A program made the translations under genes and the position numbers. Shown one piece after another: positions 7,461 through 32,494 of a stretch of 63,036 bases of DNA. The stretch covers positions 1-63,036 of the forward strand of contig NZ_QEIO01000010.1 in assembly GCF_003336425.1 (NCBI RefSeq), in the 5' to 3' direction. The notes under the pieces are model-generated. The model searched no databases. It saw only the letters and a program-made list of their open reading frames with translations, and was not told where the DNA came from. Each line of letters begins with the position of its first letter. Within the stretch, counting starts at the first letter, position 1. Source of the DNA: Marinitenerispora sediminis (GTDB lineage: Bacteria > Actinomycetota > Actinomycetes > Streptosporangiales > Streptosporangiaceae).

Positions 7461-7565
7461 GGTCATGAGCGCCAGCGTCAAGCCCCGGCTTGCTGGCCGG
7501 CAACCCTCCTTCCGCGGTGGGGTGCCCCGGGTGAGGACCAGGTCGAGACACGACCGAGCAAGCAA
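7461..7565 (+). promoter_or_regulatory. SAM-IV riboswitch
   Basis: The sequence follows the SAM-IV aptamer consensus nearly base for base. GGTC at 7461-7464 pairs with GACC at 7536-7539 (P1), and GCCAGC at 7471-7476 pairs with GCTGGC at 7492-7497. The conserved core holds GGCAACCCTCC and GTGGGGTGCC. The extra hairpin downstream of P1 that separates SAM-IV from SAM-I is present: GGTCG 7541-7545 with CGACC 7551-7555. It lies 85 nt upstream of the class V aminotransferase and should lower its expression when S-adenosylmethionine is plentiful. No intrinsic terminator follows, so control at translation is more likely. Confidence 0.93.
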
Positions 7566-7649
7566 CCGTGTCAGGCAAGCGCGGACCCCTCCCGTGCCAG
7601 CACCACCGCGTGCACCCCGGGGTCCCCGGACCCATGGAGGTGCCCTGTA

Positions 7650-11124: not shown

Positions 11125-12243
11125 ATGACGAAGACCGGGGGTCGGCAGCGTGCCGGTGCCGTGCGGGGCCGGCAGATGGTGCGCGTGACGGCGGCCACGG
11201 CCGCGGCACTCGCCACGACGGCGGCGCTGGCGGGCCCGGCACAGGCGGAGGACGGATGGCGCCTGGCGTACGGATCGCCGGAACTCGGCGGCACGTTCGA
11301 CGTGGTCGCCGCCGCCGACGCCGGGAACGTCTGGGCGTTCGGCATCGCCGACGACGGCGGCCCGACCTGGATCCACCGCTGGGACGGCGCCGACTGGCAG
11401 CGCGAGGAGCTGCCGGCGGACTGGACCCTCCGGCCGACCGTGGCCGACGCCTCCGCCGCGGACAACGTCTGGGCAGCCGGGGTGTCCGAGGACGGGGCCA
11501 GCACCCTCCACTACGACGGCACCGCGTGGCGTGCCGTCGAACTGGACCCGGCGCTGGTCCCCACCGACATCGAGGCGCTGTCGGAGGACGAGGTGTGGCT
11601 CCTCTCCGAGCCGGTCGACGGCTGGGCGCGCGCCGCCTACTTCGACGGCGAGGTCTGGCGCGACTACCCGGCCCCGGAGTCGACCGCCAGCGCCGTCTCC
11701 GGTGTCGCCTCCGACGCGGTGTTCGCGGCCGGCTACGACGGCGACCAGCCCAGCGTCGAGCGCTGGGACGGCACGCGGTGGCAGCCGATGGACGTCCCCG
11801 AGGTGGACCTCCCCGGCGGGGAGCCGTCCGCCGGCTTCACCGACGTCTACGCCCGCGCGGCCGACGACGTGTGGGCCGTCGGCGACATCCACTACGTGGA
11901 CGACGACGAGCGGAACCGCTACCTCCCCCTGCTGGCGCACTGGGACGGCACGGAGTGGACGGTCGAAACCGGCGAGTCCGAGGGCCGCTACTCCGGCGTC
12001 ACCGACGACGGCGCCGGCGGCCTGTGGATCAAGGACGGCAGCTGGGACGGCGACCTGGTGCACCGCACCGCCGACGGCGAGCTGACCCGGTACACGCCCA
12101 CCCAGGACGGGTACGAGCTCCACATCCCGAAGCCGACCGCCATCCCCGGCACCACCAGCGTCCTCGCCGCCGGCCAGGCCTACCCCGAGGGCGACCCGGA
12201 CGTTCCGGTCGGGTACGGAGTGGTGTTCGCGTACGGGCTGTGA
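11125..12243 (+). CDS. Secreted protein with propeller-like Trp repeats
   Basis: 372 residues with a clear Sec signal peptide: basic N-region to residue 20, hydrophobic 'VTAATAAALATTAALAGP', and an AxA cleavage site ('PAQAED'). The mature part repeats a motif of about 40-50 residues in which 'NVWAFG', 'NVWAAG', 'EVWLLS' or 'DVWAVG' is followed by 'W/YDGxxW' (HRWDGADW, HYDGTAW, YFDGEVW, ERWDGTRW, HWDGTEW). This spacing suggests the blades of a beta-propeller. No lipobox cysteine is present, so it is probably exported freely. Such proteins are common in actinomycetes and mostly unassigned. A strong hairpin follows. Confidence 0.75.
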   Translation: MTKTGGRQRAGAVRGRQMVRVTAATAAALATTAALAGPAQAEDGWRLAYGSPELGGTFDVVAAADAGNVWAFGIADDGGPTWIHRWDGADWQREELPADWTLRPTVADASAADNVWAAGVSEDGASTLHYDGTAWRAVELDPALVPTDIEALSEDEVWLLSEPVDGWARAAYFDGEVWRDYPAPESTASAVSGVASDAVFAAGYDGDQPSVERWDGTRWQPMDVPEVDLPGGEPSAGFTDVYARAADDVWAVGDIHYVDDDERNRYLPLLAHWDGTEWTVETGESEGRYSGVTDDGAGGLWIKDGSWDGDLVHRTADGELTRYTPTQDGYELHIPKPTAIPGTTSVLAAGQAYPEGDPDVPVGYGVVFAYGL

Positions 12244-12261: not shown

Positions 12262-12297
12262 GATCCGGCGGCCGGGCTGATGCCCGGCCGCCGGATC
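12262..12297. terminator. Strong bidirectional terminator hairpin (copy A)
   Basis: A perfect 16-bp stem (GATCCGGCGGCCGGGC at 12262-12277) with loop TGAT and its exact complement at 12282-12297. It sits between the convergent ends of the secreted protein gene and the accessory minus-strand operon, about 25 nt past the latter's last stop. A homologous hairpin lies at 16830-16863. Confidence 0.8.
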
Positions 12298-12321
12298 CGT
12301 TCTTGGGGGGCCCGACACCGG

Positions 12322-12786
12322 TCACGCCCCGCTCGTTCCGGGAGGCGGCGAGCAGGCCGTCCGGAGCAGGCGTTCCACCCGTTCGAGGTGAGCGCAGGGG
12401 AAGAACAGGTGGACGTCGTCCGACGTGTCGGCGCCCACTCCGAACGCGTCCGGGACCACCGGGCGGACGGCCAGCCACGAGTCGGCGGTTGCCCACCGCC
12501 GCAGGCCGGCCCGCAGCTCCCGGTCGGTGCTGACCATGGTGATGAGCCGCTGGGCGTCGGCGGCGCGGAGCTTGAGCCACACACGGCCCCGGTGGAAGTC
12601 GATCCATCGCGGGTCCCCGGAAAGCAGGCCGGGATGCGCCTGGAGGGACTCGCCGTAGTCCTGGCAGCTGGCCCGGGTGCGGATGCCGAGGTTCCACAGC
12701 AGGGAGATGAGCCGGACCAGCGCGAGGTCGACGTGCACGGTCCGCCCGTCCGGAGCGGTGAGGCGTTCACACGGGTGCCGTGGCAT
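12322..12786 (-). CDS. Uncharacterised protein, last gene of accessory operon
   Basis: 154 residues with no family I can name. 'LVRLISLLWNLGIRTRASCQ' near residues 23-42 is the most distinctive part (a helix followed by a Ser-Cys-Gln turn). The middle 'WIDFHRGRVWLKL' and the final 'DVHLFFPCAHLERVERLL' look like strands of a small alpha/beta domain. There is no signal peptide or membrane segment. Its start overlaps the end of the HAD gene by 20 bp, so the two are almost certainly cotranscribed and translationally coupled. Confidence 0.75.
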   Translation of the reverse strand: MPRHPCERLTAPDGRTVHVDLALVRLISLLWNLGIRTRASCQDYGESLQAHPGLLSGDPRWIDFHRGRVWLKLRAADAQRLITMVSTDRELRAGLRRWATADSWLAVRPVVPDAFGVGADTSDDVHLFFPCAHLERVERLLRTACSPPPGTSGA

Positions 12787-13318
12787 GGCCCTCCTCGGTG
12801 ATCAGGCCGACCGCCCACAGCCGGACGGCCTGGATGTGGCCGCGCCGGAGCCCGACGCGGGGGTCGGGTTGGATGAGCAGAGTCGGCGTCCCGGCGCGGG
12901 TCCGCTGCGCCGCCCACGCGTGGTCGGCGTCGGTGAAGTCGTCATCGATCCATGCCAGCGGTCGATCGGCTGCCCAAGTGCTGACAGAGTCGCGTTTCCA
13001 CAGGTAGCCGTGGGGATGCGGAGTGGTGATGTCCGGACGCCCCAGGTCGATGTAGGGCTGGGGGCTCAGGCCGATGCGGCGGCCGACGCACCCGTCGGCG
13101 TCGGCCATCCAGCTGCTCGCCCACACCGGTCGGACGAGGCCCATCGCGGCGGTGGCGCTGATCCACGCGCCGTGGCGGGGATTGAGCCAGACGAGGATGT
13201 CGCGATGGCCCTCGGGGGAGACTCGGTGCGGGCGGTAGCCGGGAGGAACGGACCCCTGTGGGCCGGGGAAGGGATTGAGGACCCCGTCAATGTCGATCAG
13301 TAGGGCGGGGGGTTCCAT
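12767..13318 (-). CDS. HAD-like hydrolase domain protein
   Basis: 183 residues. The first strand gives the HAD motif I 'LLIDIDGVLNPF' with Asp9 as nucleophile and Asp11 as general acid. 'ASSWMADADG' follows as a motif II-like segment, and 'LAWIDDDFTDAD' supplies the paired acidic residues that bind magnesium. Family members are mostly phosphatases; the substrate is unknown. The cap region is minimal. The gene starts 3 nt after the phosphotransferase stop and overlaps the next gene by 20 bp, so a kinase-like and a phosphatase-like protein are made from one message. Confidence 0.8.
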   Translation of the reverse strand: MEPPALLIDIDGVLNPFPGPQGSVPPGYRPHRVSPEGHRDILVWLNPRHGAWISATAAMGLVRPVWASSWMADADGCVGRRIGLSPQPYIDLGRPDITTPHPHGYLWKRDSVSTWAADRPLAWIDDDFTDADHAWAAQRTRAGTPTLLIQPDPRVGLRRGHIQAVRLWAVGLITEEGHATAPV

Positions 13319-13321
13319 GCT

Positions 13322-14230
13322 TCACACCTTCAGCAGATGGACCGCGTCCTGGACGTGGCGGCGGACGACGCGGACATAGACGTGGTCGGTGGAGTGGTCG
13401 GCGATCCAGACAGCGGCCTGGGCGAGGAACCATTCCACGACCCAGACGCGGTGCCAGCCGAGTGCCCAGTTCTCGGCCGGCAGCCCGCCCCGAATGGCGC
13501 GCGCCTGGCCCGGTCCGCCGGCCGCGACGTAGGCGTCGATGATGTCGCGGGTGCGCGCGGGGTCGGGGACGTCGACAGTGCCGTGCCAGGACGCCAGGTC
13601 GATCAGCCCCGGGCCGGCGAACGCGCGCGCCAGGTCGTAGAGGCGGCGGCGGTCACCGCGCACGTGCAGGCTCTCCGGGTGGAACTCCGAGTGCACCCAA
13701 CCGAACGGCGGCGTGCGGACGCCACGCGCCCGGGGGAGGGACGCTTCGTCCAGTGCTTCGAGGGCGTCAGCAATGTCGCTGGTCTCGTTCCACCGTCCGG
13801 CTGCGCGGAGCCGGGCCAAGTGCCCGACCGCCCGCCCGGGGAGAGTGGCCAGCCACTCCGCCGAGCCGATCGGTAGGTGGTCCGGTACGGGGGCGGCGTG
13901 CAGCGGGACGATCGCCGCGACGGCGTCGGCATCGGTCGCCTCCCGCTCAGGGGCGCCCATGTCCTCCAGGACCATGCCCAGCGCGGTGGGCGTACGCACC
14001 GACGTGATTACCTCGGGGACGTCGATCTCGGCCGCGCGCAGACGGGACAGGGACCGGGCCTCGTCTAGGAACGGCTGGACGGCGCACTTGAAGATAACGG
14101 TTGCGCTGGGAGTGTCCAGGCGTTCGACATGGGACAGCGCCCAGTCATGCAGGACGTCGCGCTTCCGGGCCGTCTGTCCCGCGCGACGCAGGACGGTATC
14201 GCGGAGCTGGTCGATGTCGGCGGTGTACAT
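13322..14230 (-). CDS. APH/choline-kinase-fold phosphotransferase-like protein, altered active site
   Basis: 302 residues from ATG 14230, preceded by GAGAGG. Lys48 in 'ATVIFKCAV' corresponds to the ATP lysine, and 'YDLARAFAGPGLIDLASW' resembles the metal-binding segment with Asp199 and Asp211. The catalytic loop reads 'WVHSEFHPESLHV' (residues 178-190), whereas the family norm is His-Gly-Asp-x-His-x-x-Asn. The catalytic aspartate is therefore glutamate and the asparagine is serine. Activity may be weak or shifted, or the protein may bind nucleotide without transfer. It lies 59 nt downstream of the unknown 245-residue protein in the same operon. Confidence 0.75.
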   Translation of the reverse strand: MYTADIDQLRDTVLRRAGQTARKRDVLHDWALSHVERLDTPSATVIFKCAVQPFLDEARSLSRLRAAEIDVPEVITSVRTPTALGMVLEDMGAPEREATDADAVAAIVPLHAAPVPDHLPIGSAEWLATLPGRAVGHLARLRAAGRWNETSDIADALEALDEASLPRARGVRTPPFGWVHSEFHPESLHVRGDRRRLYDLARAFAGPGLIDLASWHGTVDVPDPARTRDIIDAYVAAGGPGQARAIRGGLPAENWALGWHRVWVVEWFLAQAAVWIADHSTDHVYVRVVRRHVQDAVHLLKV

Positions 14231-14289
14231 GGGGCCTCTCGTCGGCGAAGGGAGGCTCCCCGCCGCGTGGGGAGCCTCGTCGGACCGGG

Positions 14290-15027
14290 TCAGCTCACCG
14301 CGAACGACTGGACCCGGGACATCCACTCGTCGCGGAATCCGGCGAGTTCGTCGCGGATGCGGTCCATTGGAGTGCCGTAGGGGGCGACGACGCCGCCCCG
14401 GCTGTCGGGGACGGACTGACAAGCGTGCACCAGCCTCCCGCCGAGGGCGGCGTGCGCCTTGATGCCCTCGATGCGGCGGTTCTCGTTGAACCATCCGCCG
14501 TGGAAGACCTCGTCCAGCATGCCGGCGGTCTCCCGGTCGAGGTCGTAGACCACTTTGGCGGCGTCGACGAAGAACCACGCCGGGCCAACGTTGCTGATGG
14601 TCCCGTCGGGCTCGACCTTGTTGAGCGCTGTGAGGGTGGAGACCTCGGCGAGCATCCGCAAGTGGTCCGCGGTCACCCCTTTCAGGCCGAGCGAGGGCAG
14701 GTGCTCCTCGCGGAACAGGAAGCCGTAGACCTGCCAGGCGATCCGCAGCACCTCGGCCGGGTCGGTGGTCGTCCGGCCGTGTTCGGCGATGAAGTTCAGC
14801 GCGATCTGCTCGATGGACTCGGTGGGCGTCTCGTTGACGGGCAGCAGTGCAGCGGCGACCTTCTCCCAGTCGATGACCGTCCACGTGGTGGACTCGACGC
14901 GGAAGTAGTACGAGGCCGGATCGATGGTGAGCGTCCTGCCGGTGACGGTGATACCGGGGATGCGGTTCCACCGTGTGTCGAAGGTGTGCGGCAGGTCCAC
15001 GGTGATCGGAGCGATCGTGATTGCCAT
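14290..15027 (-). CDS. Uncharacterised protein, first gene of second accessory unit
   Basis: 245 residues from ATG 15027; I do not recognise the family. The N-terminal third looks strand-rich ('ITVTGRTLTIDPASYYF'). The rest is helical, with conserved-looking aromatic motifs 'IAWQVYGFLFREEH' and 'VFHGGWFNENRRIEG'. There is no signal peptide, membrane helix or obvious catalytic motif. The gene begins a unit that continues with the phosphotransferase and HAD genes, and the tandem CGCAAT element lies 39 bp upstream. A possible -10 (CATACG on the minus strand, about 15038-15043) would make the message nearly leaderless. Confidence 0.7.
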   Translation of the reverse strand: MAITIAPITVDLPHTFDTRWNRIPGITVTGRTLTIDPASYYFRVESTTWTVIDWEKVAAALLPVNETPTESIEQIALNFIAEHGRTTTDPAEVLRIAWQVYGFLFREEHLPSLGLKGVTADHLRMLAEVSTLTALNKVEPDGTISNVGPAWFFVDAAKVVYDLDRETAGMLDEVFHGGWFNENRRIEGIKAHAALGGRLVHACQSVPDSRGGVVAPYGTPMDRIRDELAGFRDEWMSRVQSFAVS

Positions 15028-15065
15028 GCAAGGACCGTATGACGAAGCGTCTCGACGCCTCCTGG

Positions 15066-15083
15066 CGATTGCGCCGGATTGCG
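15066..15083 (-). promoter_or_regulatory. Tandem CGCAAT operator-like element, copy 1
   Basis: On the minus strand the sequence is CGCAATCCGGCGCAATCG: two CGCAAT half-sites exactly 10 bp apart, on the same face of the helix. It lies 39-56 bp upstream of the 245-residue protein's start. The same 18-mer, with two differences, recurs at 16769-16786 upstream of the other unit of this block, pointing to one shared regulator, perhaps the HTH protein encoded between them. Confidence 0.6.
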
Positions 15084-15113
15084 GCGCTGCTGGCTGGTGT
15101 TGCGCGAAGTCGC

Positions 15114-15956
15114 TTACGGCCGGGTGAACTGATCCCGTGCGCGGGTGATGAGGCGGTGCGCCTTGTGCTCGTAGATGGCTGAGGCGGCCATGAGATTCCA
15201 GATCCTGCGGTAGAGGGCCACGTCGTCGGTCGAGTCGAGCCACAGCTCGGCGTTCCAGGTCTCCACGACGACGAGGCGTTCGTCCATGATCCAGAAACCG
15301 TGTTTCGGTGAGAAATGGGTACGGACGCCGAACGGGATCACGCCGAGCGTGACGGTATCCAGCCCGATGACACCACACAGGCGGTCGAGCTGGGCGGCCA
15401 TCGCCTCCGGGGCGCAGCGCGCCACGTGCAGTGCACCCTCCCAGATGAGGGCATGAAAGTGGCGGCCAGGTCGATACAGCACTTCCTGCCGCTGCATTCG
15501 GGCGCGCACGCCGGCTTCGATGTCGCGTGGCGAACCGATGCGGTCGGACACGTCGGCGAGGACACCGCGGGCGTATTCGGGAGTCTGGAAGAGGCCGGGG
15601 ATGATGCCGGACTCGAAGACATGGATCGTCTTGGTCTGTGCCTCGCGGAGCGCGCTCGCTTCTTGGACGGCTCGATGGCCCGCGGCGAGATGGCGCTTCC
15701 AACTGCGGTAAGCCGTTTCCAGCCCTCGCAGGCGCCCCTTGAGTTCGCTGAGTACTCCGGTGGCTTCCAGCGCGTTAGCCCATGCTTCCAGGTCGGCGAC
15801 CGTAGCGGTCTGCCTGCCATTCTCCAGACGTGAAACTTTGGACGGCTGCCAGCCGAGACGTGCGGCAAGCTGCTTGCCGGTCAGACCGGCCTCGGTGCGC
15901 AGTTCGCGCAGCCGCGCACCGAGGTTTCTCCGGCCCTGTTGAAAGTCGGTGCTCAC
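15114..15956 (-). CDS. HTH (XRE) regulator with DUF5753 domain
   Basis: 280 residues. The N-terminal helix-turn-helix spans roughly residues 8-65 ('LRELRTEAGLTGKQLAARLG', 'QPSKVSRLENGRQ'). It is followed by a DUF5753 effector domain with the typical 'IHVFESGIIPGLFQTPEYAR' and a long 'HFHALIWEGALHV' segment. Start is GTG 15956, which overlaps the stop of the DUF6879 gene (GTGA), so translation is coupled. This HTH/DUF5753 plus DUF6879 pairing is widespread in actinomycetes as a regulator with a small partner; some relatives behave like toxin-antitoxin or sporulation regulators. It is a candidate binder of the tandem CGCAAT elements. Confidence 0.88.
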   Translation of the reverse strand: MSTDFQQGRRNLGARLRELRTEAGLTGKQLAARLGWQPSKVSRLENGRQTATVADLEAWANALEATGVLSELKGRLRGLETAYRSWKRHLAAGHRAVQEASALREAQTKTIHVFESGIIPGLFQTPEYARGVLADVSDRIGSPRDIEAGVRARMQRQEVLYRPGRHFHALIWEGALHVARCAPEAMAAQLDRLCGVIGLDTVTLGVIPFGVRTHFSPKHGFWIMDERLVVVETWNAELWLDSTDDVALYRRIWNLMAASAIYEHKAHRLITRARDQFTRP

Positions 15957-16489
15957 CCCGGTGACGGTACCTGTCTGAGGATGTCGTCCCGCTTGACGGC
16001 GTGGTGCCATGCCGCGTCCCGGATTTGGCAGAACTCGACGATGCGCGCCGGCTCCTCGACCAGTTCGGAGCCGAGAAGCTCGTCGTCCTCGTCGAAGTGC
16101 AGGACCAGCGCGCGGCGGGAGTCGAACAGCCAGAAGTCGACGGCGGGGAGGCTGAGCTTTTCGGAGTCTGCCCGCCAGAGGTTCCGGATGTCCTCGCCCG
16201 CCGCGATGTTGGACGCGGCTGAGGTGAGAAGGTAACGCTGGCCCTCCGTGGGCGGGGAGTCAAGGATTCGCACCCGCGCGAACCACTTGCCTTGGCGTCG
16301 CTGCTCCCGGACGTTCGCACACCACGGCCGGTGGCTGTCGTCCGGGAGCGGCTCTCCGGCGAGGAACCGTCGGTATTTCTCACTGGCCCGGTCGCTGGCG
16401 TAGCCACGTCGGGTTTCCAGGCGCCACACGGTGTGCTGGAAACTCTGGAAGTAGTCCCCGAAGGTGGCTTCGTCGATGTAATCCGCCAC
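15953..16489 (-). CDS. DUF6879 family protein
   Basis: 178 residues of the DUF6879 family, recognised from 'FQHTVWRLETRRGYASD', 'HRPWCANVREQRRQGKWFARV' and 'FWLFDSRRALVLHFDEDDEL'. The function is not established; in actinomycetes these proteins are nearly always encoded beside an HTH/DUF5753 regulator, as here, and are thought to work as its partner. The stop codon overlaps the regulator's GTG start by four bases. The preceding 69-residue gene ends 5 nt upstream, making a compact three-gene unit. Confidence 0.85.
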   Translation of the reverse strand: MADYIDEATFGDYFQSFQHTVWRLETRRGYASDRASEKYRRFLAGEPLPDDSHRPWCANVREQRRQGKWFARVRILDSPPTEGQRYLLTSAASNIAAGEDIRNLWRADSEKLSLPAVDFWLFDSRRALVLHFDEDDELLGSELVEEPARIVEFCQIRDAAWHHAVKRDDILRQVPSPG

Positions 16490-16494
16490 GTCGA

Positions 16495-16704
16495 TCAGTC
16501 CTTCAGCGGGAAGCGGGTGAGTAGCTCGCGCGGAACCACGACGAATGACTCCCCGTCCAGCACATGCTGGAACTGGGTGAGGTCCTCGGGATCATTCACG
16601 GTGTAGCCCTGCACGATCACCTCGCCTGTGTCGACGTCTTCGTACAGCGTCGGGCAATTGCCGTCATCAGAGGTCGACCCGATCACGCGAATCCTGCGCG
16701 CCAT
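16495..16704 (-). CDS. Small conserved protein upstream of DUF6879
   Basis: 69 residues, acidic, probably a compact beta-rich fold ('RIRVIGSTSDDGNCPTLYED', 'GEVIVQGYTV', 'ESFVVVPRELL'). Start ATG 16704 follows GAAAGGGG. Small proteins of this type commonly precede DUF6879 genes in actinomycetes, but no function has been assigned that I know of. The tandem CGCAAT element lies 65 bp upstream, so this is probably the first gene of the regulator unit. Confidence 0.75.
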   Translation of the reverse strand: MARRIRVIGSTSDDGNCPTLYEDVDTGEVIVQGYTVNDPEDLTQFQHVLDGESFVVVPRELLTRFPLKD

Positions 16705-16768
16705 GGGTCCCCTTTCTTGTCAGTGGTGTCGGAGATCAGGATGCGCGGGATGACGCGTGCCCGCTGCT

Positions 16769-16786
16769 CGATTGCGCGGAATTGCG
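16769..16786 (-). promoter_or_regulatory. Tandem CGCAAT operator-like element, copy 2
   Basis: Minus-strand CGCAATTCCGCGCAATCG, differing from copy 1 (15066-15083) at two central positions and keeping both CGCAAT half-sites and their 10-bp spacing. It lies 65-82 bp upstream of the small gene that opens the DUF6879/HTH unit, suggesting autoregulation together with co-control of the downstream enzyme unit. Confidence 0.6.
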
Positions 16787-16829
16787 CGAGGAGGTCATGC
16801 GACTCCGCTCCCCCGAGACGGCCTGCAAT

Positions 16830-16863
16830 GAACCGGCGGCCGGGCTGATGCCTGGCCGCCGGT
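16830..16863. terminator. Strong terminator hairpin (copy B)
   Basis: AACCGGCGGCCGGGC at 16830-16844, loop TGAT, and a matching arm at 16849-16863 with one G-T wobble. It begins 21 nt past the DUF397 stop on the minus strand. It shares loop, core stem and the flanking CGTTCT with copy A at 12262-12297. Where the two differ in the stem base (TC..GA versus AC..GT), the partner base has changed too. Confidence 0.75.
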
Positions 16864-16883
16864 TGCGTTCTCGGGGCGGGGGG

Positions 16884-17069
16884 TCACATCGTGTGGGTCT
16901 TGAGTTCGTGGAGGAGGGCGGTCCATGCGTCGGGGGAGAAGGTGAGGTGGCCGAGGTGGCGGTGTTGGGTGTCGCGGACGAGGACGGCAGGTCCTTCCGC
17001 TACCTCCACACAGCTGCCTTCTACAGCGCTGTAACTGCTCTTGTGCCACGTGGACTCATGCTCGAACAT
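16884..17069 (-). CDS. DUF397 domain protein
   Basis: 61 residues from ATG 17069. 'TWHKSSYSAVEGSCVEVAE', 'AVLVRDTQHRHLGHLTFS' and 'AWTALLHELK' are the standard DUF397 signature. In actinomycetes the family is paired with an HTH/DUF5753 regulator; the Scr1/Scr2 pair is a described toxin-antitoxin-like example. The start overlaps the end of the regulator gene by 14 bp, so both come from one message. Confidence 0.93.
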   Translation of the reverse strand: MFEHESTWHKSSYSAVEGSCVEVAEGPAVLVRDTQHRHLGHLTFSPDAWTALLHELKTHTM

Positions 17070-17877
17070 CAAGGTTGTCCCTGACCTTCCGGACCAATTC
17101 GCTGCTTGCGCGGGGTGAGAGCGCTTCGGACTGGAGGACACCGAAGATCGTCGCGCACTGTTGGATCTTCATTGTGTCGTCCAAAGTCATCTCGCCTCCC
17201 ATGTACTCGGCTGAGGCGACCTGAGGAGTATCCACGAAGGTGTAGATGCGAAATGGCCCTGACGCTCCCGGGTGGCACTCTGCGTCTGGAGCCATGACCT
17301 GGAACCGGATGGCTTCTCGCTCGATCAGTCCCAGGACGTGCGTGAGCTGCTCCTTGAGCACCTTCTGTCCGCCGATGGCGCGTTGGATTACAGACGCCTC
17401 CACCACCATTGACACCAGAGGTGGGGCCTCCTTCTCCAGGATGTGCTGCCGCTGCAGCCGGGACCTTACCCTGCGTTCCCGGTCCGTTGGAGTGATCCAG
17501 GGAGCACCTTCACGGTACACCGCCCGCGCATAGTCCTCGATCTGGATCAGCCCCGGAATCAGTTGCGGCTGGTACTCCCGCAGTTCGGTAACCCGGCGTT
17601 CCAGCTGCTCGACCTCTTCGTACCACACCGGTAGCGGGTCCGGCGCGTGTGCCTTCGCCCACGCCCGTGCGATAACACCAGACGTGTTGAGTGCTCGGTC
17701 GAGCTTCTCTGCCTGCTTCCCGGTCATCCCCCGAGTCCCGCATTCCCAGGCGGAGATATGCGAGGGCACCATCTGCATTTCCTTGGCGACCTGTGCCTGC
17801 GTCATCCCGGACCTGATTCGGAGTGTCCGGATTTCCCGACCGAGACGACGCCAGGCCGGTTTGATTTTGCGATCCAT
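17056..17877 (-). CDS. HTH regulator with DUF5753 domain (Scr1-like)
   Basis: 273 residues. An XRE helix-turn-helix at about residues 10-66 ('LRIRSGMTQAQVAKEMQ', 'PSHISAWECGTRGMTGKQAE') precedes a DUF5753 domain ('LREYQPQLIPGLIQIEDYAR', 'VVEASVIQRAIGG'). It differs clearly from the first regulator of this region (15114-15956), so the two are separate systems. Its partner is the overlapping DUF397 gene. The divergently transcribed ATPase gene starts about 205 bp away and may share control. Several codons are AT-richer than in neighbouring housekeeping genes, hinting at accessory origin. Confidence 0.9.
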   Translation of the reverse strand: MDRKIKPAWRRLGREIRTLRIRSGMTQAQVAKEMQMVPSHISAWECGTRGMTGKQAEKLDRALNTSGVIARAWAKAHAPDPLPVWYEEVEQLERRVTELREYQPQLIPGLIQIEDYARAVYREGAPWITPTDRERRVRSRLQRQHILEKEAPPLVSMVVEASVIQRAIGGQKVLKEQLTHVLGLIEREAIRFQVMAPDAECHPGASGPFRIYTFVDTPQVASAEYMGGEMTLDDTMKIQQCATIFGVLQSEALSPRASSELVRKVRDNLDVRA

Positions 17878-18082
17878 TAGCCCGCCTTCACAACCGGTTC
17901 ACGACCGACTACACCAGTGCAGCACGGTGGCGCCTCTGTCGAGCACCGGTTCTGACCTTTTGTATCCGAACGGTGATCTACCTGGTCCGAGGCGTTCGGT
18001 GTCGTTCATGGTGGTGCCAGGGGAACTCGCTAACGGTCTGCGAGTTTCCAATGGTTATGGGATGAATTGAAGGGGCGCGCCA

Positions 18083-18625
18083 ATGAGTGCAACCGTCATA
18101 GTCGCGGATAATTCCGACGAACAACGCGAGGACAATTACGTCACCCCGCTTCCCCGCCGAGCCACGACATCGGCCGACCGCGCCGCCGTCGACCCGGACG
18201 GCTCCGCCAGCCCCGGTACCGGCTACGCCATCACCATCCCCGGGGACCCGGCCCAGGCGGCCGTGCTTCGGCGGCATGTCCGTTTCGTCGCCGCGCTGCC
18301 CCGCGACGAGAGCGAGGTGCTGGAACAGCTCGCCAGTGAACTCTTCAACAACGCGGTCATCCACACCCGCTCCCGCCTGCCCGGCGGCAGTGTGACGGTC
18401 ACCGTCGCCAAGCTGACCGACCCCGCCCGGACCCAGATCAAGGTCATCGATGACGGCACGGAGGACGACTCCGCCGCCCCATGTGTCCAGCCCACCGACC
18501 CCGATCGGGTCGGCGGGCTGGGAATGTTCCTGGTCGATCACTACGCCGACCGCTGGGGGACGCTCCGCGGCCCCGACGGGCGGACCACCGTGTGGTTCGA
18601 GGTCGACCGGCGCCCGCCCGCGTGA
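18083..18625 (+). CDS. Histidine-kinase-like ATPase, anti-sigma-factor type
   Basis: 180 residues of the HATPase_c_2/RsbW-like family. Residues 1-50 are polar and poorly ordered. The ATPase core follows, with N-box 'ASELFNNAVIHTRS', G1 box 'IKVIDDGTED' and G2 box 'VGGLGMFLVDHYAD'. No sensor, membrane or histidine-phosphotransfer region is present. Such stand-alone ATPases often bind or phosphorylate anti-sigma-factor antagonists and are typical neighbours of HTH/DUF397 pairs in actinomycetes. It is divergent from the regulator at 17056-17877. ATG 18083 follows an AAGGGG ribosome site. Confidence 0.85.
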   Translation: MSATVIVADNSDEQREDNYVTPLPRRATTSADRAAVDPDGSASPGTGYAITIPGDPAQAAVLRRHVRFVAALPRDESEVLEQLASELFNNAVIHTRSRLPGGSVTVTVAKLTDPARTQIKVIDDGTEDDSAAPCVQPTDPDRVGGLGMFLVDHYADRWGTLRGPDGRTTVWFEVDRRPPA

Positions 18626-18647: not shown

Positions 18648-19433
18648 CTACGCGGCCTCTGCCGCCCACTCCCGCCACGTCCGCTGGTGCGCCTCCACCA
18701 GCCAGGCGTTCGCCCAGGCGGAGTCGGCGCGCTCGGGCAGGTCGGAGCTCTCGCTCAGCGCGACGAGACGCGCCTCCAGGTCCGCGGCGGCCTCCAGAGC
18801 CTCGTCCCGGGTGTGCCGGCCCTGGCGCAGCTCGCGCAGCCAGGTCCGCCACGGCTCGGGTACCGGGACCGGCATGCGGCCGGTCTCCAGCAGGCCGACA
18901 CCCTGCACGCCCAGGCGCACCATGTGGTAGGCGTACTTGGTGTCGAAGCCGTAGGCGGCCACCAGCTCCGGGCGGTTGGTGTGCCGGGAGCCCTCCCCGG
19001 TGAGGCCGGCGCGCTGCGAGCGCAGGTAGCCGCGGAACCGCCGGGCCGCGTCGCGGGAGACGAAGCGGTGGCCCTCGGCGCGCAGCTCGCGGCCCAGGTC
19101 GGTGCGGTGCGTGACCTCCGCCTCGGGCACGTACAGCGGCAGCAGGACCGTCGGATTGCCGGCCAGGGCCAGCCGCATCCACTTGCGCAGCGCGTACACC
19201 ACGAGGTCCAGGTCACCGGGGCCGGAGCGCTCGCCCTCCCCGGCGGTGCGGAAGATGTACTGCTCGAACTGCCGCAGGCCCGCCACGTACTCCGGCGGCT
19301 CCACGCAGACCCCCATCTCGTCGCGGTCGTCCTGGCCGTCGATGGCGGTGCCGTGCACTCCGGAACCGACCTGGCAGCGCAGGATCGTGCCGCGCTCCGC
19401 CAGCCGGGCGAACTCGTCGGTGGAGTGCCGCAT
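18648..19433 (-). CDS. Nucleotidyltransferase domain protein (Pol-beta superfamily)
   Basis: 261 residues from ATG 19433, which is preceded by GGGAGGCGGAG. The active-site strand is 'QVGSGVHGTAIDGQDDRDEMG', a Gly-Ser-x-x-x-Gly motif with acidic pairs as in predicted stand-alone nucleotidyltransferases. 'NPTVLLPLYVP' and 'RFVSRDAARRFRGYLRSQ' follow in the helical part. Close relatives are found in phages and bacteria, without a settled substrate (tRNA, RNA repair or protein nucleotidylation are possible). Its end faces the ATPase gene with a 22-bp gap. Confidence 0.78.
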   Translation of the reverse strand: MRHSTDEFARLAERGTILRCQVGSGVHGTAIDGQDDRDEMGVCVEPPEYVAGLRQFEQYIFRTAGEGERSGPGDLDLVVYALRKWMRLALAGNPTVLLPLYVPEAEVTHRTDLGRELRAEGHRFVSRDAARRFRGYLRSQRAGLTGEGSRHTNRPELVAAYGFDTKYAYHMVRLGVQGVGLLETGRMPVPVPEPWRTWLRELRQGRHTRDEALEAAADLEARLVALSESSDLPERADSAWANAWLVEAHQRTWREWAAEAA

Positions 19434-32160: not shown

Positions 32161-32252
32161 GGGGACGCGGCCCCGCGTCTCCCTGTGCGGGACCCGGCAG
32201 GCGGCGGGAATACCCCCGCATGGCAGACTTGTTGGTCGAGACGTTCAACAAC

Positions 32253-32379
32253 GCGTGCTCCGGGGTCGGTGAAAGTCCGAACCGGCGGTCAAAGTCCGCG
32301 ACCCGGCCGAATCCATCGGCCGGTTGAACCGGTGGAATTCCGGTACCGACGGTGAAAGTCCGGATGGGAGGCAGCGCGC
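32253..32379 (+). promoter_or_regulatory. FMN riboswitch (RFN element)
   Basis: The RFN consensus is complete: CGGGGTCGGTGAAAGTCCGA, then ACCGGCGGTC and GTCCGCGACCC, a variable stem, GAACCGGTGGAATTCCGGTA, CCGACGGTGAAAGTCCGGAT and GGGAGGCAG. The closing P1 stem pairs GCGTGCT (32253-32259) with AGCGCGC (32373-32379). It lies 115 nt upstream of ribE. A small hairpin, CGGACG/CGTCCG at 32420-32436, lies in the leader without a T tract, so FMN probably limits translation of the operon. Confidence 0.97.
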
Positions 32380-32494
32380 GTGGCGGACGGCGGACCCGAG
32401 CCCGGTCCCGGCTGACGGGCGGACGCCGTTCGTCCGGCGGTCGAGGCCGCGTGTACATCCCCGGAGCCTGAGCAGGTAAGGGGATGGCTCTCAG

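Follow-up and report, generated by a model that had tools for sequence, protein, structure and literature searches.

An accessory actinomycete locus that joins a recurrent kinase-fold core to a separable XRE-type regulatory triad: a candidate phosphotransfer operon in Marinitenerispora sediminis

A block of seven minus-strand genes in Marinitenerispora sediminis, located at positions 12262–16863 of a 63,036-nt window (the whole stretch of DNA analyzed here) from a 6.01-Mb genome, is reminiscent of several described systems, each in part. The WhiJ9–BldB9–IosA locus of Streptomyces venezuelae shares with the block an XRE regulator, an operator of 10-bp direct repeats, signs of autoregulation, and a target without a known fold; its regulator is paired with DUF397 and has a single target of 15 kDa, whereas the M. 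sediminis regulator is accompanied by a small protein and a DUF6879 protein, stands before a multi-gene operon, and is predicted to bind DNA (PMC10294661). The XRE–DUF397 pairs of S. coelicolor, proposed toxin–antitoxin systems, likewise combine a regulator of HTH and DUF5753 domains with a small partner, but the block has DUF6879 instead, with DUF397 found only in the neighboring unit (PMC10364602). NsdA-family regulators (NF053720) hold the regulator position in most Streptomyces relatives of the locus and are absent from the window block. Among enzymes, the APH/choline kinase/fructosamine kinase family (Protein Data Bank [PDB] entries 4r78, 2ppq, 3jr1, and 8agy) has its whole fold, the N-lobe Lys and Glu, and the metal Asp in common with one of the encoded proteins; its catalytic loop is HxD...N, in contrast to HSE...HPxS in the window protein. 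The first-pass annotation of this DNA could not match the block to a described system, and none was found in the literature library searched, which held no description of the operon (most subscription papers and preprints lie outside its coverage). The genes are as follows, in the direction of transcription.

16495..16704, minus strand: small 69-residue protein; open reading frame (ORF), first gene of the regulatory triad
15953..16489, minus strand: DUF6879 protein; Pfam PF21806, 3.6e-54
15114..15956, minus strand: XRE regulator with HTH_31 and DUF5753, of WhiJ-type domain layout; Pfam DUF5753, 3.8e-38
14290..15027, minus strand: u245, 245 residues, no reliable family, anchor of the core operon; ORF and model
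13322..14230, minus strand: protein of predicted APH/choline-kinase fold with an HSE...HPxS catalytic loop; structure model
12767..13318, minus strand: HAD-superfamily phosphatase-like protein; weak PF18143 HAD_SAK_2 match and motif residues
12322..12786, minus strand: u154, 154 residues, conserved C41–Q42; ORF and alignment

All seven ORFs lie where the first-pass annotation had placed them, and each of the tight junctions it described can be read in the window: the DUF6879 and HTH/DUF5753 genes overlap by GTGA (15953–15956), the HAD and u154 genes overlap by 20 nt (12767–12786), and 3 nt (13319–13321) separate the APH-like gene from the HAD gene. The idea that the seven genes form one fixed system was not supported: among the loci examined, all seven occur together only in the window. 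The block comprises two separable modules, a recurrent core and a regulatory triad: the genes for u245, the APH-like protein, and the HAD protein recur as a unit, and u154 and the HTH/DUF6879 triad, which had been expected to travel with them, mostly do not.

A profile search with u245 yielded 52 named actinomycete loci, in which neighbors were sought by tblastn within set distances, downstream and on the same strand. The loci belong to Nocardiopsis, Streptomyces, Kitasatospora, Actinoplanes, Microbispora, Microtetraspora, Sphaerimonospora, Nonomuraea, and one actinomycete metagenome-assembled genome; they are not independent, being mostly from Streptomyces, with L079 and L083 on one contig and the genomes of L042, L076, L079, L082, L083, L085, and L086 also represented under other locus handles. 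An APH-like gene follows u245 in 47 of the 52 loci, an HAD gene in 45, a class I methyltransferase gene (an identity taken from one member) in 42, and u154 in 5. In loci with called ORFs, the median gaps are 77 nt between the u245 and APH-like genes (37 loci), 0 nt between the APH-like and methyltransferase genes (33), and 19 nt between the methyltransferase and HAD genes (33). The window block is without the methyltransferase, the commonest extra member of the core. Besides the five loci, u154 accompanies the core in L030, L192, and the window, and it stands after the HAD gene in the window, L042–L044, L087, and L192. Pairwise distances of u245 and the APH-like protein correlate (r 0.85 over 28 loci, 0 of 999 permutations), as common descent would also produce. 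The ORF of L063 that spans u245 and the APH-like protein appears to result from a frameshift and was not counted as a fusion.

The distribution of the core was assessed in 150 genomes of the window's family, its own genome included, drawn evenly from a larger group. Profile matches were found for u245 in 15 genomes, for the APH-like protein in 26 (14 at no less than 350 bits), for u154 in 13, and for the HAD protein in 95. u245 and the full-length APH-like protein coincide in 12 genomes, with 1.4 expected (hypergeometric 2.3e-13, relatedness ignored), and the seven genomes in which the HAD match exceeds 180 bits are all u245-positive (2.2e-8, with the same proviso). Across the class, u245 was matched in 14 of 394 genomes, fragments included. 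In G006, priA is followed within 1.4 kb by a homologue of the gene at 11125–12243, and in G007 and G010 it is followed by other genes conserved around the window, so that the block and the adjoining XRE, DUF397, and HATPase genes are absent from that site in three of three relatives; the core copy of G010 sits on another contig. These observations bear out the earlier view of the block as accessory and transferable.

Genes for a tyrosine integrase, MobA-type relaxase, MobC-like protein, or DUF3631 protein (one member of each checked for identity) occur in the flanks of 19 of the 52 loci, a count made without a random-flank control. A search of 72,556 plasmid records gave two matches to u245, and a search of 50,697 phage records gave none; one IMG/VR contig carries regulator, u245, APH-like, methyltransferase, and HAD genes (by eye and by a u245 match) beside a Pfam-confirmed relaxase. 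No tRNA was found beside the Streptomyces copies in the 12 loci scanned. Fragmented core copies in G044, G263, G141, G117, and G085 indicate that decay is frequent. The remnants in G085 (L261) are ordered small, DUF6879, APH, and HAD, with HAD pieces 61–69% identical to the window, and this order suggests that triad and core were probably together there too. The core is accessory and probably moves horizontally.

The structural likeness of the APH-like protein to known kinases is clear in its predicted model (predicted local distance difference test [pLDDT] 94.2, predicted template modeling score [pTM] 0.90). It matches PDB entry 4r78 with Z 19.2 and a root mean square deviation of 3.3 over 269 residues (Foldseek E 4.9e-8), choline and homoserine kinases match at Z 19, the fold covers nearly the whole length, and kinases of spectinomycin, corramycin, and amicoumacin are among the closest structures. 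The window protein is thus confidently modeled as an APH/choline-kinase fold. At the level of sequence profiles, it has no match to Pfam APH (PF01636), which matches 2 of 35 members of its family at E≤1 (best 8.5e-14), and the sole match of the family's profile among sequences of solved structures is corramycin phosphotransferase (E 0.049).

The catalytic loop of APH kinases is HxDxxxxN. In its place, HSE(F/L/W)HPxS is present in 38 of 38 called ORFs from the 52 loci and the window, as well as in L189, L190, L195, and L198; L191, the copy that diverges most (37% identical), gave no match to this pattern. In an alignment with a protein recognized as APH by Pfam, the HSE...S loop falls opposite HGD...N. 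K48, E57, and D199 are invariant in 35 of 35 sequences and were assigned by alignment to the N-lobe Lys, the N-lobe Glu, and the metal Asp.

Structure prediction, proposed earlier as a check on the folds, was less informative for u245. Its model (pLDDT 77.9, pTM 0.81, poor at residues 199–218) has no match at E≤0.001 or Z≥5 in the PDB, in a second look with VIA, or in viral libraries, which does not by itself prove a new fold. A single weak match to MoaF in 1 of 28 members was judged to be chance. Searches of solved-structure sequences with u245, u154, and the HAD profile returned nothing useful, and eL21 matches at E 0.11–0.56 and one designed protein were dropped.

The HAD protein matches PF18143 HAD_SAK_2 with 25.9 bits (E 1.4e-5), below the curated cut-off of 27.5. 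The superfamily motif consists of DxD, a Lys, and an acidic pair, and the protein fits this motif with D9, D11, K108, D125, and D126, invariant in 19 of 19 aligned sequences. Two further ORFs were noted in subsets of the loci. A second HAD-type gene lies between the regulator and u245, on the u245 strand, in L065, L071, L072, L074, and L084 (Pfam Hydrolase, 6.4e-13, in L065), and an ORF of 61–62 residues starts where the HAD gene ends in L051, L052, L057, L065, and L084, with no Pfam match for the L065 copy.

u154 matches no family at a useful E-value; its C41 and Q42 are invariant in seven aligned sequences. Of seven relatives examined outside the core, two (L199 and L201) lie beside MFS or EamA transporters, and two others, in L200 (3324–5925) and L203 (3267–5889), are preceded by a radical SAM gene and another ORF of 244–269 residues. 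This last ORF appears kinase-like by eye and has no Pfam APH match.

The regulator of the triad has an N-terminal HTH and a C-terminal DUF5753 domain, as in the XRE/DUF5753 (WhiJ-type) family, and the small protein has no useful family match and, in Pfam, no DUF397 match at E≤1. Small-protein homologues occupy the same position in L141, L031, and L036, and a decayed one does so in L261. The M. sediminis genome contains 2 DUF6879 copies and 26 DUF5753 matches. The triad precedes the u245 and APH-like genes in two other genomes, G119 (L031) and G016 (L036 and L035, across a contig break); the decayed remnant in G085 is without a recognizable HTH domain or u245. M. sediminis has a second triad (L141, 6572–8972 of contig 13), 61%, 44%, and 57% identical in its small, DUF6879, and HTH proteins, that precedes two small ORFs matching none of the core proteins, which suggests that the triad is in its own right a switch that can be moved.

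Most relatives of the core carry other regulators in the triad's place. An NsdA-family-type regulator, of which one member matches NCBIfam NF053720 at 9e-105, occurs in 39 of the 52 loci by ORF clustering and in 35 by tblastn, usually directly before u245 and often accompanied by a NUDIX gene, itself present in 26. XRE416 is found in six loci, five of them with a flavoprotein gene, and an HATPase gene precedes u245 in L041, L042, L030, and L192 (two further loci of the HATPase cluster, which have the gene downstream of u245, were excluded). On one plasmid, an HTH/DUF397 pair takes the regulator position.

Two elements of similar sequence lie in the intergenic regions before the triad and before the core.

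16770..16787, minus strand: tandem operator-like element GCGCAATTCCGCGCAATC, 10-bp period, 65 nt before the small gene
15067..15084, minus strand: tandem operator-like element CCGCAATCCGGCGCAATC, 10-bp period, 39 nt before u245

The same tandem element had been reported for both transcription units, and it was recovered at these positions. A pattern built from GCGCAATTCCGCGCAATC and CCGCAATCCGGCGCAATC matches four places in the genome at ≤2 mismatches, two of which are these elements, and the reversed control matches none. Of 20000 pairs of dinucleotide shuffles, one produced a hexamer of period 10 common to both intergenic regions; a 7-nt repeat of period 10 within a single region is more frequent (76 of 5000 and 41 of 5000 shuffles). 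The tandem element is beyond chance. Exact CGCAATCnnnCGCAATC occurs at six places in the 150 genomes, one of them in the window and one upstream of u245 in G119, which belongs to another genus; the other four were taken as chance, with no triad seen in the stretches fetched. A candidate element before the small gene of G119 was too weak to count. The second triad of M. sediminis is associated with a different repeat of period 10, AGAAACA, such as appears in 71 of 5000 shuffles. WhiJ9 of S. venezuelae is described as binding three direct repeats with a 10-bp unit and the consensus CGXXCTCAAC (PMC10294661), and by analogy the tandem elements fit an XRE protein that reads sites spaced by 10 bp, so that binding is predicted here.

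The reading that we tentatively favor is a horizontally moving two-module operon in which a phosphotransfer core stands under a portable XRE-type switch. The core would constitute a short phosphotransfer pathway whose substrate is a small molecule or a peptide. In it, the APH-fold protein would add a phosphate by means of its altered HSE/S catalytic loop, u245 would be its partner or an enzyme acting on its product, the HAD protein would take a phosphate off, and the methyltransferase or u154 would be variable extras. The XRE/DUF5753 protein would bind both tandem elements and thereby control its own unit and the core, with the small and DUF6879 proteins tuning it. A small-molecule or signaling role, as suggested in the first-pass annotation, may apply to the block as a whole. 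A more specific version, in which a Glu-based APH-type kinase that needs a new-fold u245 defines a new phospho-metabolite or phospho-peptide pathway, moved between actinomycetes and placed under whichever regulator was available, appears doubtful.

Several observations weigh against the phosphotransfer operon. The change of Asp and Asn to Glu and Ser in 38 of 38 sequences indicates that catalysis may be lost. u245 lacks a nearby downstream APH-like gene in five of the 52 loci (L075, L082, L083, L090, and L092, two with truncated u245 matches), one plasmid carries u245 and the methyltransferase alone, without the APH-like gene, and an APH-like gene without u245 is found in G065, G114, and G097. 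Genes for biosynthesis or transport were not observed as constant members of the operon. With respect to the switch, the CGCAATCnnnCGCAATC site of G119 (L031, 7910–7926) lies across the HTH gene's end, some 175 nt ahead of u245, a distance unlike that in the window, and G016 has the triad, yet no tandem element was seen there.

The substitution of HxD...N by HSE...S, together with retention of the N-lobe Lys and Glu and the metal Asp, would also suit an ATP-binding pseudokinase that forms a nucleotide-sensing or scaffolding complex with u245, leaving the HAD protein to a separate function. This alternative is unlikely, as Glu could in principle act as the base, the loop is strictly conserved without drift, and a phosphatase-like gene lies downstream in 45 of the 52 loci. 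Self-protection or detoxification, in which the kinase would inactivate a toxic compound in the manner of aminoglycoside-type kinases and the phosphatase or methyltransferase would tune the response, has in its favor the antibiotic kinases among the nearest structures, the transporters beside two u154 relatives, and the two plasmid copies of u245; because choline and homoserine kinases match equally well and no constant transporter was seen, it is given little weight. Moreover, resistance operons described so far are not known to include a counterpart of u245.

A function in the mobile element itself, whether to fend off phages or rival elements or to regulate the carrier, is improbable. The mobility genes in 19 of 52 flanks, the IMG/VR contig with its relaxase, and the remnants in G085, G141, and G117 are consistent with it, but no such genes were recognized directly beside the window copy, the 50,697 phage records gave no match, and PADLOC matched the regulator (16 models, mainly through the HTH part) and none of the other six proteins. 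Repair of RNA ends or nucleotides by an HAD protein similar to HAD_SAK_2, a domain of RNA-repair proteins, in concert with a kinase and a methyltransferase is very unlikely. The HAD_SAK_2 match at 1.4e-5, the NUDIX genes in 26 of 52 loci, and a gene of the RlaP RNA-repair family 2 kb upstream would fit such a role; however, the HAD_SAK_2 score is under the Pfam cut-off, the HAD profile is matched in 95 of the 150 genomes and u245 in only 15, and an RlaP homologue also lies beside priA in G007, where the block is absent. The APH-like kinase fold is distinct from the polynucleotide type, which further disfavors repair.

A lanthipeptide or thioamitide pathway was suggested by TvaE, together with the flavoprotein and the methyltransferase. 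The APH-type fold of TvaE acts in a peptide pathway, that of thioviridamide biosynthesis. TvaE (PDB entry 8jsu) matches the model of the APH-like protein by fold only, at E 1.8e-6, as do many other APH structures, and a methyltransferase together with a flavoprotein is likewise present in several u245 loci. Genes for a precursor peptide, YcaO, or a HopA1-like protein were not recognized in the core, although no dedicated search was made, and the flavoprotein is tied to one regulator type; this pathway was therefore dropped as the main explanation.

Near-identical hairpins had been noted at both ends of the block, and they are present, with 28-nt cores (12266–12293 and 16834–16861) that differ at one base within 65-nt surroundings that are 80% alike.

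12262..12297, no strand: hairpin 3' of u154, between convergent genes, terminator-like on the minus strand
16831..16864, no strand: near-identical hairpin before the small gene and after the neighboring DUF397 gene, not flagged as terminator-like

At 0–1 mismatch, the stem recurs at one other place in the 6.01-Mb genome. At ≤3 mismatches it has 29 genome matches (17+12) and its reversed control 48 (25+23), which indicates that being a G+C-rich stem does not in itself set it apart in this genome. A terminator scan found three sites compared to 2.2 in shuffles, near chance, and flagged only 12262–12297 of the two hairpins. Most simply, the hairpins are the terminators of u154 and of the neighboring DUF397 gene.

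Next to the block, at 16884–18625, HATPase, XRE/DUF5753, and DUF397 genes form an abaA/whiJ/bldB-like trio, and a nucleotidyltransferase of the RlaP RNA-repair family lies at 18648–19433, between this trio and priA. Elsewhere on the plus strand of the window, SAM-IV (7461–7587) and FMN (32251–32381) riboswitches both score above their Rfam gathering thresholds.

More generally, the analysis defines a recurrent, uncharacterized operon with clear conserved parts, among them a family of kinase fold whose catalytic loop is strictly altered and, in u245, a family without a detected fold relative. The predicted operator is directly testable, and the locus, with entire regulator modules exchanged before a single core, is a good model for how XRE-type switches of actinomycetes gain targets.

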